Assembly: GCA_016782785.1 (NCBI GenBank)
Contig: JADHXV010000003.1
Coordinates: 1-39,512 of the forward strand
Direction: 5' to 3'
Source of the DNA: Planctomycetota bacterium
GTDB lineage: Bacteria; Planctomycetota; Phycisphaerae; FEN-1346
DNA: 39,512 nucleotides
Part shown: positions 132-39,112 of the stretch, one piece after another
How positions within the stretch are numbered: position 1 is the first letter of the stretch
Layout of the letters: each line of letters starts with the position of its first letter
Made by a program: the position numbers and the translations under genes
Notes under the pieces: generated by a model
What the model was told of the DNA's origin: nothing
Databases searched by the model: none
The model's input: the letters and a program-made list of their open reading frames with translations, nothing else

Positions 132-159
132 CTCGAACAGGTGCAGGTCGTGCCACCCG

Positions 160-181
160 GCGCGGCCCGTACGGGCCGCGC
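160..181. repeat. 22-bp perfect palindrome, GGCCCGTACGGGCC family (family A copy 1)
   Basis: gcgcggcccgtacgggccgcgc; same core recurs at 8346, 34364 and 39095, with a variant at 13000. Confidence 0.85.
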
Positions 182-260
182 GGAGTGCCTCGTGGTGCTC
201 GGAACAACCCTGCCGCGCGGCGCGCGCGACTTGCCGCTGGCCGCGGCGGGCCCCTGCCGA

Positions 261-4531: not shown

Positions 4532-4585
4532 AGCCCCGTATCATGATGGCCCGTTTTCATCGGCCCTGGGCGGGAGGGTATTATC

Positions 4586-5599
4586 ATGCTCGTGTTCATT
4601 GTGCGGCTGCTGTTCTTCCTGGCGATGGTGGCGGCGGGGTACGTGTTCGGCGACGCCGTCGGCGACGGGAAACAACTGACCTCGATGCTGGGGTTCGGCG
4701 TGGCCGCGGTGGTGGTTATCGTCGTGGACCTGGCGTTCCGCCGCAAGAACATCAGCGTGGTCTCGGCGGTGTTCTTCGGCCTGCTGGTGGGGTTGGTGGT
4801 GGCGATGCTGCTCGGCCCCGTGGTCGACATGTATCAATGGATCGACGTCGAGGTCCGCCAGGCCCTGAAGGTGGGGATCGCCGCCGTCACGTCGTACCTG
4901 GCAATCTCGATCATCCTTCAGACCAAGGACGATTTCCGTTTCATCATCCCGTACATCGAGTTCGCGAAGCAGCGAAAGGGCGGCCGGCCGCTGCTGCTCG
5001 ACACGAGCGTGATCATCGACGGCCGCATCGCCGATATCGCCGAGACCCGCTTCATCGATTCGCCGATCATCGTGCCGCGCTTCATCCTGCACGAACTCCA
5101 GAGCATCGCCGATTCGTCCGAGAAGATGCGGCGCGACCGAGGCCGGCGCGGGCTCGACATCCTTAACCGCCTCCAGACCACGCCCCACGTCGACATCCGC
5201 ATCCAGGACACCCGCCCCGAGGCCCCCGCCGGTGAAAGCCCCGACCAGAGTCTCGTGAACCTGGCGGCCCATTTGAACGGCCGCGTCGTCACCGTCGACT
5301 ACAATCTGAATAAGGTCGCCCAGTTGGCCCGCGTCGACGTGCTTAACGTCAACGACCTGGCGAACGCGCTGAAGTCCACCGTCATTCCCGGCGAGGAACT
5401 TGAAGTGACCGTTCTCAAGCCCGGTCAGGAGGAAGGCCAGGGCGTCGGGTACCTCGACGACGGGACGATGGTTGTGGTGGAGGACGGCCAGAAGCAGATC
5501 GGCCAGGTCGTCTCGATTAGCGTGACGAACGTGCTCCAGAAGAGCGCCGGCCGCATCATCTTCGGGCGCATCGGAGGCAGGCCGCGGCGGCGCTCGTGA
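4586..5599 (+). CDS. PIN/TRAM domain integral membrane protein, YacL family
   Basis: N-terminal TM segments, PIN core LLLDTSVIIDGRIADIAETRFIDSPIIVPRFILHELQSIADSS, C-terminal TRAM-like VGYLDDGTMVVVEDG. Confidence 0.9.
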   Translation: MLVFIVRLLFFLAMVAAGYVFGDAVGDGKQLTSMLGFGVAAVVVIVVDLAFRRKNISVVSAVFFGLLVGLVVAMLLGPVVDMYQWIDVEVRQALKVGIAAVTSYLAISIILQTKDDFRFIIPYIEFAKQRKGGRPLLLDTSVIIDGRIADIAETRFIDSPIIVPRFILHELQSIADSSEKMRRDRGRRGLDILNRLQTTPHVDIRIQDTRPEAPAGESPDQSLVNLAAHLNGRVVTVDYNLNKVAQLARVDVLNVNDLANALKSTVIPGEELEVTVLKPGQEEGQGVGYLDDGTMVVVEDGQKQIGQVVSISVTNVLQKSAGRIIFGRIGGRPRRRS

Positions 5600-5691
5600 C
5601 GCCTGGCCCGAAGCGGCGGGCGCCGCGCGGGGCGCGGGACGGCGCGGCGCAAGGGCTGCGCCGGCCGAGGGCCTGAAGGGCATTCATCTAC

Positions 5692-6420
5692 ATGCTTTTA
5701 CCACGAGCCAGCGCCATCATTGCCGCCGCGGGGTCCGGACGCCGGTTTGTCCATGCGAGCGGCGCCGGCGGCGGGCCGCCGAAGGTCTTGGCCGACCTGG
5801 CCGGCCGGCCCGTCCTGGCCCATGTGCTCGAGGCCTTCGCCAGGGTCGCTGCCGTGGCGGAGATCGTCGTGGCGGTGCCCGAGGGCCGTCTGGCGTGGGC
5901 ACATGAGGCGCTGGCCGGCCCCTGGCGCGACGGGTGCCGGCTGATGTTCGTCGCGGGCGGCACCGAGCGGACCGACAGCGTGGCCCGCGCGCTGGAGGCG
6001 ACCGACCGCAGCACGGAACTGGTGGCCATCCACGACGGGGCCCGGCCGCTCATCCGGCCGGCGGTCATCGAGGAAGCGCTGCGTACGGCCGTCGAATGCG
6101 GTGCCGCCGTGGTCGGCCGGCCGGTGGACCATACCGTCAAGGCGGTGGCCGAGGACGGTCGCGTCATCGAGACCGTGCCCCGCCGGGCGCTGTGGCTGGC
6201 CCAGACGCCGCAGGTCTTTCGCCGGGAGATCCTGTCGCAGGCGTACGCCCGGCGAAAGGACGTGGTGGGCCGGGTCACGGACGATTCGCAACTGGTCGAG
6301 GCCCTGGGGCAGACCGTCCGGATGGTCCGCGGCGACACGGCGAACCTCAAAATCACCACACCCGAGGACCTGCGGGCCTGCGAAGCGCTCCTGGCCGCCG
6401 GCTGGCCGTTTGAGCCGTAA
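5692..6420 (+). CDS. ispD: 2-C-methyl-D-erythritol 4-phosphate cytidylyltransferase
   Basis: AAAGSGRRF, HDGARPLI, GRPVDHTVK, WLAQTPQVFRREIL, VTDDSQLVE. Confidence 0.93.
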   Translation: MLLPRASAIIAAAGSGRRFVHASGAGGGPPKVLADLAGRPVLAHVLEAFARVAAVAEIVVAVPEGRLAWAHEALAGPWRDGCRLMFVAGGTERTDSVARALEATDRSTELVAIHDGARPLIRPAVIEEALRTAVECGAAVVGRPVDHTVKAVAEDGRVIETVPRRALWLAQTPQVFRREILSQAYARRKDVVGRVTDDSQLVEALGQTVRMVRGDTANLKITTPEDLRACEALLAAGWPFEP

Positions 6421-6499
6421 AGCGCCGCGCCGCCGCGCCACGCGCAGCACGAGGGGTCGAAAGACGAGCCTGCACGGGACGCCATCGTCGGAGGACGGA

Positions 6500-8338
6500 G
6501 TGGCCGACGGACCACAGAGGCTTGAGAAGCTCGACGGGGGCGCGCCTCCCCCGCCGCCGGAGCACCGTCCGACGGCCGCGACGGTGGTTTTCCTGGCGGT
6601 GGTGGCCTCGGTCCTGGCGCTATACGGGGCGTCGGACCGGCCGCTGTTCACGGCACACGAGGCGCGGGCGGCGCGGTGCGCCCGGCATATGCTCCGGCCG
6701 GACGAATGGCCGGGAGACAGGCCGAACCCCTGGCTGATTCCGCAGTTCTCGCCCGATGTCCCGCCGGGCCTGGCCTACCAGAAGCCGCCGCTGTACTACT
6801 GGGCGGTGGCGGCGGCGAGCCTGGTCGGCGGCGAGGTGACACCACTGACGGTCCGCCTGCCCAGCGCGGTCGGTTTTGTCCTGCTAGTCCTCGTCGTCTA
6901 CTTCCTCGGCCGCGACCTCGTGGGCCACCGGACGGGCCTTGTGGCGGCCCTTGTGCTGGCGAGCACGCCGAAGGTGCTCTGGTGGGGGAGGGCTGCCATC
7001 CTCGACCCGATGCTGGCGGTGTGCATCGCGGCCGCGCTGCTGTGCTTCGTGCGGGCCCACCTGGGCCGCGGCGGCGCCTGGCAGTATTGGCTCTTCTGGG
7101 CCTTGGCGGGGCTGGGCACGCTCGTCAAGGCGACCGCCCTCGTGGTGCCGCTGCTGACGGTCGGCCTGTACCTGCTCGTCCGGTGTCGGCAGGACGGGTT
7201 CTGGCGGTCGCTGGCGCGCCTGAAGCCGATCACGGGGCCGCTGGTGCTGCTGGCCGTGGCGGCGCCGTGGCACATGGCGGCCCACTGGGCGACAGGCGGC
7301 GCGTTCAGCCGCATCTACTGGGGCATGCATGTGTTCGGCCGGGCCACCGGGACCGGCGTCTTCGAGGCCAGGACGGCCCCGTGGTTTTACCTGCCGGCGA
7401 TGGCCCGCGACCTGTTTCCATGGGTCGTGTTCCTGCCGGGGGCGTTGGTCCAGGTCTGGCGGCGTCGCTCGCGACCCGAACGCCGGGCGATGCTGTTTCC
7501 GTTCGTGTGGTTCGTCGGCTCGCTGGCGTTCTTCTCGGCCGTATCGTTTAGAAAAGATGAGTACATGCTCGTGGCGTATGGCGCGGCGGCGCTGCTGGTC
7601 GGGTACTTGCTGGACTATTACGTCGAGGCGCAGAACGAGGATGCGGCCCTTCGCAAGTGGATCGTGGTGGCCTTTGTGGTCCTGGCTGCGGTTGCGGTCG
7701 TGATGGTGGCGGCGCTGTTGGCGCTGGGCCTGGCGCCGTGGGCCCGCCAGGGGCTGCTCGAGGCGCTCGACAATCGGACCGACCGGGCGGTCGTCTCGGC
7801 GGTCGGCAACCTGCTGGCCGGTCGGGTCTGGCTGGCGGTGGCGCTGGCCGCCCCGGTGGCGGTGGGGGCGGTGGCATCGCTCGTGTTGGTTCTGCGGCGT
7901 CGGGCGACGGGGGCGTTTGCGCTGACCGTCTGCACAACGATCTTGGCGTTTGCCCTCTTCGTCGAGATGGCGGTGCCGGCGCTCGGCCGGGTGCGGGGCC
8001 TGGTGGCGTTCGCCGACGCGGTCGAGGCCGAGGCCGTCCGCCGCGGCCCGTCCACGCGGGTGCTTCTGGCGATTGAGGAGTGCCACGAACTGGCCTTCCT
8101 TCTGGACGAGCGGGCCGACGAGTTGAAGGCCCTTGTGAAGCCGCAGGCCTTCCTCGGCCGCGAGACGGCCGAGGGCCGGTCCTGGCTGGTCGTGACGGAC
8201 CGAGACGCCTACGAATCGGGTGCCTGGGCCGACCTGGGCGCGTGGCAGGTGGTGGCGCAGACGCCCGAAGGCCATCGCCGGCCGATGATCTGCCTGGCCC
8301 CGCCAGCCGAGAAAAGCGAACCGACGGAGGAGCCATGA
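6500..8338 (+). CDS. GT39/ArnT-like membrane glycosyltransferase
   Basis: Multiple TM segments, RPLFTAHEARAARCARHML, YQKPPLYYWAVAAASLVGG, RLPSAVGFVLLVLVVYFLGR; GTG start at 6500 preceded by GGAGG. Confidence 0.85.
   Translation: MADGPQRLEKLDGGAPPPPPEHRPTAATVVFLAVVASVLALYGASDRPLFTAHEARAARCARHMLRPDEWPGDRPNPWLIPQFSPDVPPGLAYQKPPLYYWAVAAASLVGGEVTPLTVRLPSAVGFVLLVLVVYFLGRDLVGHRTGLVAALVLASTPKVLWWGRAAILDPMLAVCIAAALLCFVRAHLGRGGAWQYWLFWALAGLGTLVKATALVVPLLTVGLYLLVRCRQDGFWRSLARLKPITGPLVLLAVAAPWHMAAHWATGGAFSRIYWGMHVFGRATGTGVFEARTAPWFYLPAMARDLFPWVVFLPGALVQVWRRRSRPERRAMLFPFVWFVGSLAFFSAVSFRKDEYMLVAYGAAALLVGYLLDYYVEAQNEDAALRKWIVVAFVVLAAVAVVMVAALLALGLAPWARQGLLEALDNRTDRAVVSAVGNLLAGRVWLAVALAAPVAVGAVASLVLVLRRRATGAFALTVCTTILAFALFVEMAVPALGRVRGLVAFADAVEAEAVRRGPSTRVLLAIEECHELAFLLDERADELKALVKPQAFLGRETAEGRSWLVVTDRDAYESGAWADLGAWQVVAQTPEGHRRPMICLAPPAEKSEPTEEP
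8325..8338. repeat. Left 14-bp direct repeat CGGAGGAGCCATGA flanking a palindromic element
   Basis: Identical to 8379-8392; contains the GT39 stop and an ATGA overlap. Confidence 0.9.
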
Positions 8339-8345
8339 TGGGTTT

Positions 8346-8371
8346 CCGCGCGGCCCGTACGGGCCGCGCGG
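8346..8371. repeat. 26-bp perfect palindrome CCGCGCGGCCCGTACGGGCCGCGCGG (family A copy 2)
   Basis: Read directly. Confidence 0.9.
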
Positions 8372-8378
8372 CACGAAG

Positions 8379-8392
8379 CGGAGGAGCCATGA
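8379..8392. repeat. Right 14-bp direct repeat CGGAGGAGCCATGA
   Basis: Identical to 8325-8338; supplies the RBS and ATG of the GT2 gene. Confidence 0.9.
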
Positions 8393-9132
8393 GCGGCAAG
8401 TCGTCGAAAAAGGGCAGCGGCAAGACCTCGGGCCACGCCGTCAGCGCCGTCCTGCCCGCGTATAACGAGCAGGAGGTGCTTCGGCAGTCGACGGAAGAAC
8501 TGCACGCCGCCCTGGCGAAGGCGTGTGAACGCTTCGAGATCATTATCGTTGACGACGGCTCGACCGACGACACGCCGCGCGTCGCGGACGCGTTGGCCGA
8601 CGAGTACGACGAGGTCCGCGTCATCCACCACCGGCCGAACCAGGGGTACGGGGCGGCCCTTCGGAGCGGGTTCACGAGCGCCAAGATGCCGCTCGTCTTC
8701 TACACCGATGCGGATAGCCAGTTCGTGCCCGGCGAGATCGGCCTTCTGCTGGAGCGCATCGGCGAGGCCGACATCGTCACGGGCTACCGGGCCGACCGGC
8801 AGGACCCGTGGAACCGGAAGGTTTTCTCGTGGGGGTTCAAGAAGTTCATCGGCCTGGTGTTCGGCGTGCGGGTGCGCGACTGCGACTGCGCGTTCAAACT
8901 GTACCGGCGGAAGGTGTTCGACGAGATCACGATCGACTCCAATATGTTTTTCATCGACGCCGAGGTCCTGGCGAAGGCCAACGTCCTGGGGTACCGCATC
9001 GACGAGGTGCCCGTCACGCATCGGCCGCGGGCCGGGGGGCAGAGCACGGTGCGCCTCAGCCACATCCTCTCGACCCTGCGCGAGGCGTGGCACATGCTCG
9101 TCGCCCCGAACCTGCCGGTCCGGCAGCCGTAG
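8389..9132 (+). CDS. Family 2 glycosyltransferase (dolichyl-phosphate mannosyltransferase-like)
   Basis: VSAVLPAYNEQEVL, IIIVDDGSTDDTPRV, FYTDADSQFVPGEI, DCDCAFKLYRRKVF; alternative in-frame start at 8335. Confidence 0.92.
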   Translation: MSGKSSKKGSGKTSGHAVSAVLPAYNEQEVLRQSTEELHAALAKACERFEIIIVDDGSTDDTPRVADALADEYDEVRVIHHRPNQGYGAALRSGFTSAKMPLVFYTDADSQFVPGEIGLLLERIGEADIVTGYRADRQDPWNRKVFSWGFKKFIGLVFGVRVRDCDCAFKLYRRKVFDEITIDSNMFFIDAEVLAKANVLGYRIDEVPVTHRPRAGGQSTVRLSHILSTLREAWHMLVAPNLPVRQP

Positions 9133-9162
9133 CATGCGGCCGAGTAGGCCGGGCGCGGCGGG

Positions 9163-12999: not shown

Positions 13000-13019
13000 C
13001 GCGGCCCGTACCGGCCGCG
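13000..13019. repeat. Variant palindrome CGCGGCCCGTACCGGCCGCG (family A, one mismatched pair)
   Basis: Core GGCCCGTACCGGCC versus GGCCCGTACGGGCC. Confidence 0.75.
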
Positions 13020-34363: not shown

Positions 34364-34383
34364 CCCGGCCCGTACGGGCCGGG
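34364..34383. repeat. 20-bp perfect palindrome CCCGGCCCGTACGGGCCGGG (family A)
   Basis: Read directly, abuts the preceding hairpin. Confidence 0.85.
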
Positions 34384-39094: not shown

Positions 39095-39112
39095 CCGGCC
39101 CGTACGGGCCGG
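39095..39112. repeat. 18-bp perfect palindrome CCGGCCCGTACGGGCCGG (family A), followed by GTGGCACC
   Basis: Read directly. Confidence 0.85.

Follow-up and report, generated by a model that had tools for sequence, protein, structure and literature searches.

Rickettsia palindromic elements are palindromic inserts that lie in frame and are translated within proteins. REP sequences, with the related BIMEs and REPINs, occur together with RAYT transposases (PMC2817692, PMC3116915), and insertion by IS200/IS605 transposases has been described as free of larger target duplications (PMC2817692). Palindromic repeats tagged with GTAG or CGTC have been reported also from Planctomycetes, and REPs have been noted at the N-terminal ends of genes (PMC3733652). 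REP-like palindromes seldom leave a readable scar, so that their arrival at new sites is hard to study. Here, we describe one insertion that combines an empty orthologous site with a perfect flanking duplication, this readable scar being the unusual part. Very probably, a member of a REP-like family inserted recently into an ancestral, ATGA-overlapping junction between a GT39 and a GT2 glycosyltransferase gene, with a 14-bp duplication of CGGAGGAGCCATGA.

The junction is located in a window of 39,512 nucleotides (the whole stretch of DNA that was analyzed) from the metagenome-assembled genome of an uncultured planctomycete (2.68 Mb, 75% complete). The sequence-only reading had described two identical 14-bp repeats around 40 bp with a 26-bp palindrome, and its coordinates were confirmed exactly (Table 1). 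The repeats are 100% identical and spaced by 54 bp, and the arms of the palindrome (8346-8358 and 8359-8371) have 13 nt each with a gap of 0. That each repeat carries a Shine-Dalgarno sequence and an ATG, the left copy forming the ATGA overlap with GT39, was likewise seen in the open reading frames and their translation. The same translation bore out that the 54 bp keep the upstream ATG in frame with GT2 and would add 18 residues (17 from the alternative in-frame start at 8338). The GT39 gene, whose true start is probably well inside the longest ORF, matched PF13231 (E=5.6e-18) and PF02366 (E=5.3e-14).

Table 1. Coordinates of the GT39-GT2 junction and of the palindrome copies in the window
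Feature	Position	Strand	Remarks
GT39-type glycosyltransferase gene (PMT/PMT_2)	6101..8338	+	Longest ORF; TGA stop 8336-8338
Left direct repeat CGGAGGAGCCATGA	8325..8338	+	Shine-Dalgarno, ATG (8335), GT39 stop; GAGCCATGAGC as single copy in G005
Inserted 40-bp REP-like element (very probable insertion), TGGGTTTCCG-core-CGGCACGAAG	8339..8378	.	Missing at orthologous G005 junction; arms compared with oriented copies
26-bp perfect palindrome CCGCGCGGCCCGTACGGGCCGCGCGG	8346..8371	.	Predicted RNA hairpin, stem 11 bp, loop 4
Right direct repeat CGGAGGAGCCATGA	8379..8392	+	Shine-Dalgarno and putative ancestral GT2 start ATG (8389)
GT2 (family 2) glycosyltransferase gene	8389..9132	+	Coordinates from putative ancestral start; PF00535 E=3.8e-32
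Second palindrome copy in window	158..183	.	1 mismatch to 26-mer; upstream of cyclophilin domain
Third core copy in window	13000..13019	.	1 mismatch; between called genes

The combination of repeat and palindrome at this junction is not due to chance. With up to three mismatches allowed, the 26-bp palindrome occurred twice in the window and never in 100 shuffles. Re-pairing the left flank of one copy with the right flank of another gave an expectation of ca. 0.1 to 0.2% of copies with an exact 14-bp flanking repeat, part of these matches stemming from homologous composite repeats, and none was found among the same-locus shifted controls. Shine-Dalgarno-ATG motifs are short and G-rich, and two ordinary ribosome sites might for that reason look alike by coincidence. 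However, the identity extends over 14 bases, the CC spacer and the A that follows the ATG among them. Within the window, the 14-mer is confined to the two repeats, and the relative G005 has a single copy at its junction, differing at two bases. All this makes coincidence extremely improbable. The Rfam search of the window gave no match.

In G005 (contig JAUVZF010000053), a genome of the same family, the GT39 and GT2 genes are connected through a single ...CGGGCGAGCCATGAGC... and overlap in ATGA. This is the empty site with a single repeat copy in a close relative by which the sequence-only reading had proposed to check its scenario, an insertion with a 14-bp target duplication into a coupled GT39-GT2 junction; that site, together with the dispersed palindrome family described below, supports it. 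Removing 54 bp (8339-8392) from the window yields a colinear alignment with G005 across GAGCCATGAGC. The gene pair shares 71 to 80% nucleotide identity between window and G005; the GT39 protein has a 61% identical match there, and the GT2 orthologue is 76% identical and begins with MSKK. Synteny extends on both flanks (window 4573-9133 versus L076), and a misjoined or chimeric assembly is therefore unlikely.

The single copy in G005 differs from CGGAGGAGCCATGA at 2 of 14 bases while the two repeats of the window are identical, and on this evidence the duplication is most likely more recent than the split of the two lineages. The opposite polarity would have the 54 bp as ancestral and lost from G005 by slippage or recombination between the 14-bp repeats. 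Direct repeats favor precise deletion, which would also yield an empty site, and the palindrome is present in G005 at 68 other places. Against this, in a gene pair diverged to the extent given above, an ancestral pair of repeats should no longer match at 14 of 14 positions unless function holds both, and the other sites that we compared were all unshared too. We consider such a loss improbable. More distant GT2 homologues were rejected as polarity markers, as the GT39-GT2 pairing is absent in the deeper relatives examined. Since the pair is found in only one relative, the polarity rests on the identity of the two repeats.

The palindrome is best labeled as a new, lineage-specific, dispersed and high-copy REP-like family. 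A search for its 20-bp core CGCGGCCCGTACGGGCCGCG, with up to one mismatch tolerated, yielded 124 copies in the genome of origin, compared with 0 for the reversed pattern (188 versus 21 for the control with two mismatches allowed). At the same threshold there were 68 copies in G005, one in G002 and none in 58 other relatives; of the 298 genomes of the class, 2 contained the exact 22-mer. We studied 155 distinct copies as fetched stretches (116 from the genome of origin and 39 from G005), of which 147 (ca. 95%) fell outside called genes, even though a simple codon model, trained on the window, assigned ca. 82% of the sequence to coding regions. A second hairpin, GCGCGGYGGGT-N-ACCCRCCGCGC, lies within 120 bp of 32 of the 155 copies. 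About a dozen of these composites have one identical spacing, and a subset has a tail, GGGAAGTAGCGTTGTAGTA, on the side opposite the second hairpin. Most copies are single, as is the one at the junction. Parts of the 10-bp arms of its insert (CACGAAG, TTTCCG) recur next to other palindrome copies.

No shared copy was found at the orthologous gaps compared between the genome of origin and G005 (the hslV, murE-murF, yidD-rnpA and SMC-Lon junctions, L229, L231 and L235), indicating that insertion sites turn over fast. The first four gaps are too diverged in G005 for exact insertion boundaries. L195/L235, a candidate for a shared copy, was rejected, as the two copies flank a single orthologous block, one on each side. 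Other repeats were also observed. Variant palindromes with the same 16-bp center, CGGCCCGTACGGGCCG, and a different outer context (CCC...GGG and GTGGCAC-type flanks) are located at window positions 34364-34383 and 39096-39111 and probably represent a related repeat family. An inverted repeat of the form TGTCATTCTGAGG...CCTCAGAATGACA is dispersed as well and often adjoins the palindrome (L211:1040-1170, also L195, L189 and L213).

We searched for a transposase that could have moved the element. The genome of origin has nine Y1_Tnp matches (RAYT/IS200 type), including six RAYT-like Y1 genes at L217, L218, L219, L220, L221 and L223 (contigs C33, C45, C12, C132, C48 and C156, respectively). Each of the six is flanked on either side by matching hairpins of a type particular to that gene, resembling RAYT-REP units in this respect. 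The hairpin of L223, GCGCGGCGGGTCTCCGCACCCGCCGCGC, is the partner type in composites with the studied palindrome. No Y1 gene bounded by the studied palindrome was found at the nine loci of this 75%-complete genome or at the eight loci of G005; a RAYT may be missing from the former through its incompleteness. In one orthologous gap, the genome of origin has a RAYT gene with its hairpins (L219:510-1516) and G005 has the palindrome (L229:940-1172). Sulfatase-like genes beside two copies were considered as a linked mobility gene and rejected as ordinary paralogues.

If a RAYT (a Y1 transposase acting on single strands) had mobilized the element as a REP, with the 14-bp repeat as a side event of the movement, this would account for a high-copy intergenic palindrome that in some copies forms fixed-spacing pairs with a second hairpin, like REPINs and BIMEs, in a genome where one of the Y1_Tnp matches is flanked by the partner hairpin type. 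We nevertheless regard this as rather unlikely. The six Y1 genes are flanked by hairpins of other sequences, and the remaining loci lack the palindrome. A GTAG/CGTC tag abutting the stem was absent from the consensus of the oriented copies beside the core, GTAG being found only within the tail of a subset. Larger target duplications are also not what IS200/IS605 transposases are described to leave (PMC2817692). With no tag at the stem and no partner transposase found here, we do not file the element as a RAYT-REP.

The sequence-only reading had also expected flanking duplications at other copies, and this held for ca. 3 of the 136 others; most have none, and the lengths differ. Searching for repeats no farther than 16 bp from the core in either flank, we obtained a score of at least 10 in 4 of 137 copies, compared with 0.6 expected from re-paired flanks and 0.0 from shifted flanks of the same locus. 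These were the junction copy (14/14), L211 (16 bp with 1 mismatch, spanning the TAA stop of an SMC-like gene, for a duplication of 13 to 16 bp), L028 (19 bp with 3 mismatches) and L038 (10/10); L028 and L038 are weak matches that may be due to chance. In all four, the upstream gene ends 10 to 11 bp before the core, so that its stop codon lies within the left repeat or directly next to it, with insert lengths of ca. 29 to 42 bp, repeats of 10 to 19 bp, and insert ends that differ. Without a position limit, shared words were distributed nearly equally in true and re-paired flanks, except for a mild excess of the longest matches. L196 was rejected as a target duplication; at L196:865-1026 there is instead a tandem duplication of ca. 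71 bp with a palindrome variant and second hairpin (CGCGCCGGGCAAGCCCGGCGGC).

Thus, a target duplication of fixed length was not seen at most copies (4 of 137, with repeats of 10, 14, 16 and 19 bp), and the family as a whole is not characterized by a fixed 14-bp duplication. The clean duplication at the junction and that at L211 are what a MITE moved by a DDE transposase making a defined target duplication of ca. 14 bp would leave. However, no matching pair of terminal inverted repeats bounds the inserts (the ends at the junction, TGGG... and ...GAAG, do not pair), and the variation in ends and repeat lengths and the many copies with no duplication also argue against such an element, so that we find this origin very improbable. 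Duplication would accompany only some insertions, and landings on a stop codon appear to be seen only where the duplication preserved the stop.

We return to insertion with target duplication, the reading that we favor for the junction. Ancestrally, the stop codon of GT39 and the start codon of GT2 would have overlapped in ATGA. A 40-bp palindromic element would then have been inserted and its 14-bp target duplicated, and we infer that both changes came about in one event. A possible route is a staggered break that captured a repeat copy and was then filled in around it; alternatively, the polymerase could have switched template to another palindrome copy and back. The ends of the insert and the length of the repeat change from copy to copy, as would more readily be expected of break repair or templated insertion than of a transposon with fixed ends. 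The left repeat retains the stop of GT39 and the right one the ribosome-binding site and start of GT2, leaving both frames intact. With the signals of both genes kept by the duplicated 14-mer, the insertion was tolerated where a plain insertion would have damaged one gene, and the duplication thus explains the survival of both.

For the junction RNA, a strong hairpin of -39 kcal/mol is predicted, compared with -30.4 in shuffles (z = -2.9), and this stable predicted structure would now separate the ribosome site of the left repeat from that of the right one. As a further expected consequence, translation may begin at either ATG, so that a fraction of the GT2 molecules would carry the extra residues. 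A broader proposal, that the palindrome spread by a non-RAYT route duplicating 10 to 19 bp of target and that landings at gene ends survive through the restored stop (at GT39-GT2 also the start), is one that we put forward tentatively and hold to be doubtful. The junction provides a concrete target for population sequencing and an example of how dense operons can absorb repeat insertions.

Compared with known systems, the family is closest in appearance to the REPs, BIMEs and REPINs that accompany RAYTs (PMC2817692, PMC3116915), with a short GC-rich palindrome (here within 20 to 40 bp) in more than 100 copies, mostly extragenic, of which about a dozen share one spacing to a second hairpin while most are single. 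It differs in having neither the GTAG/CGTC stem tag nor a RAYT gene bounded by the palindrome, and in the 14-bp target duplication, which the related IS200/IS605 elements are described as not making (PMC2817692). The tagged repeats of the same phylum (PMC3733652) are palindromes of similar size, whereas the family studied here lacks their stem tag and, among the genomes searched, is restricted to two, with a single further copy in another. In contrast to bacterial MITEs, it has no terminal inverted repeats or fixed duplication length, and only a few copies have duplications; with them it shares, at the junction site, a short non-autonomous piece of DNA with a flanking target duplication. Unlike Rickettsia palindromic elements, its copies are nearly all intergenic and the insert measures only ca. 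40 bp, but like them, this insert has an open frame that could add residues to a protein.
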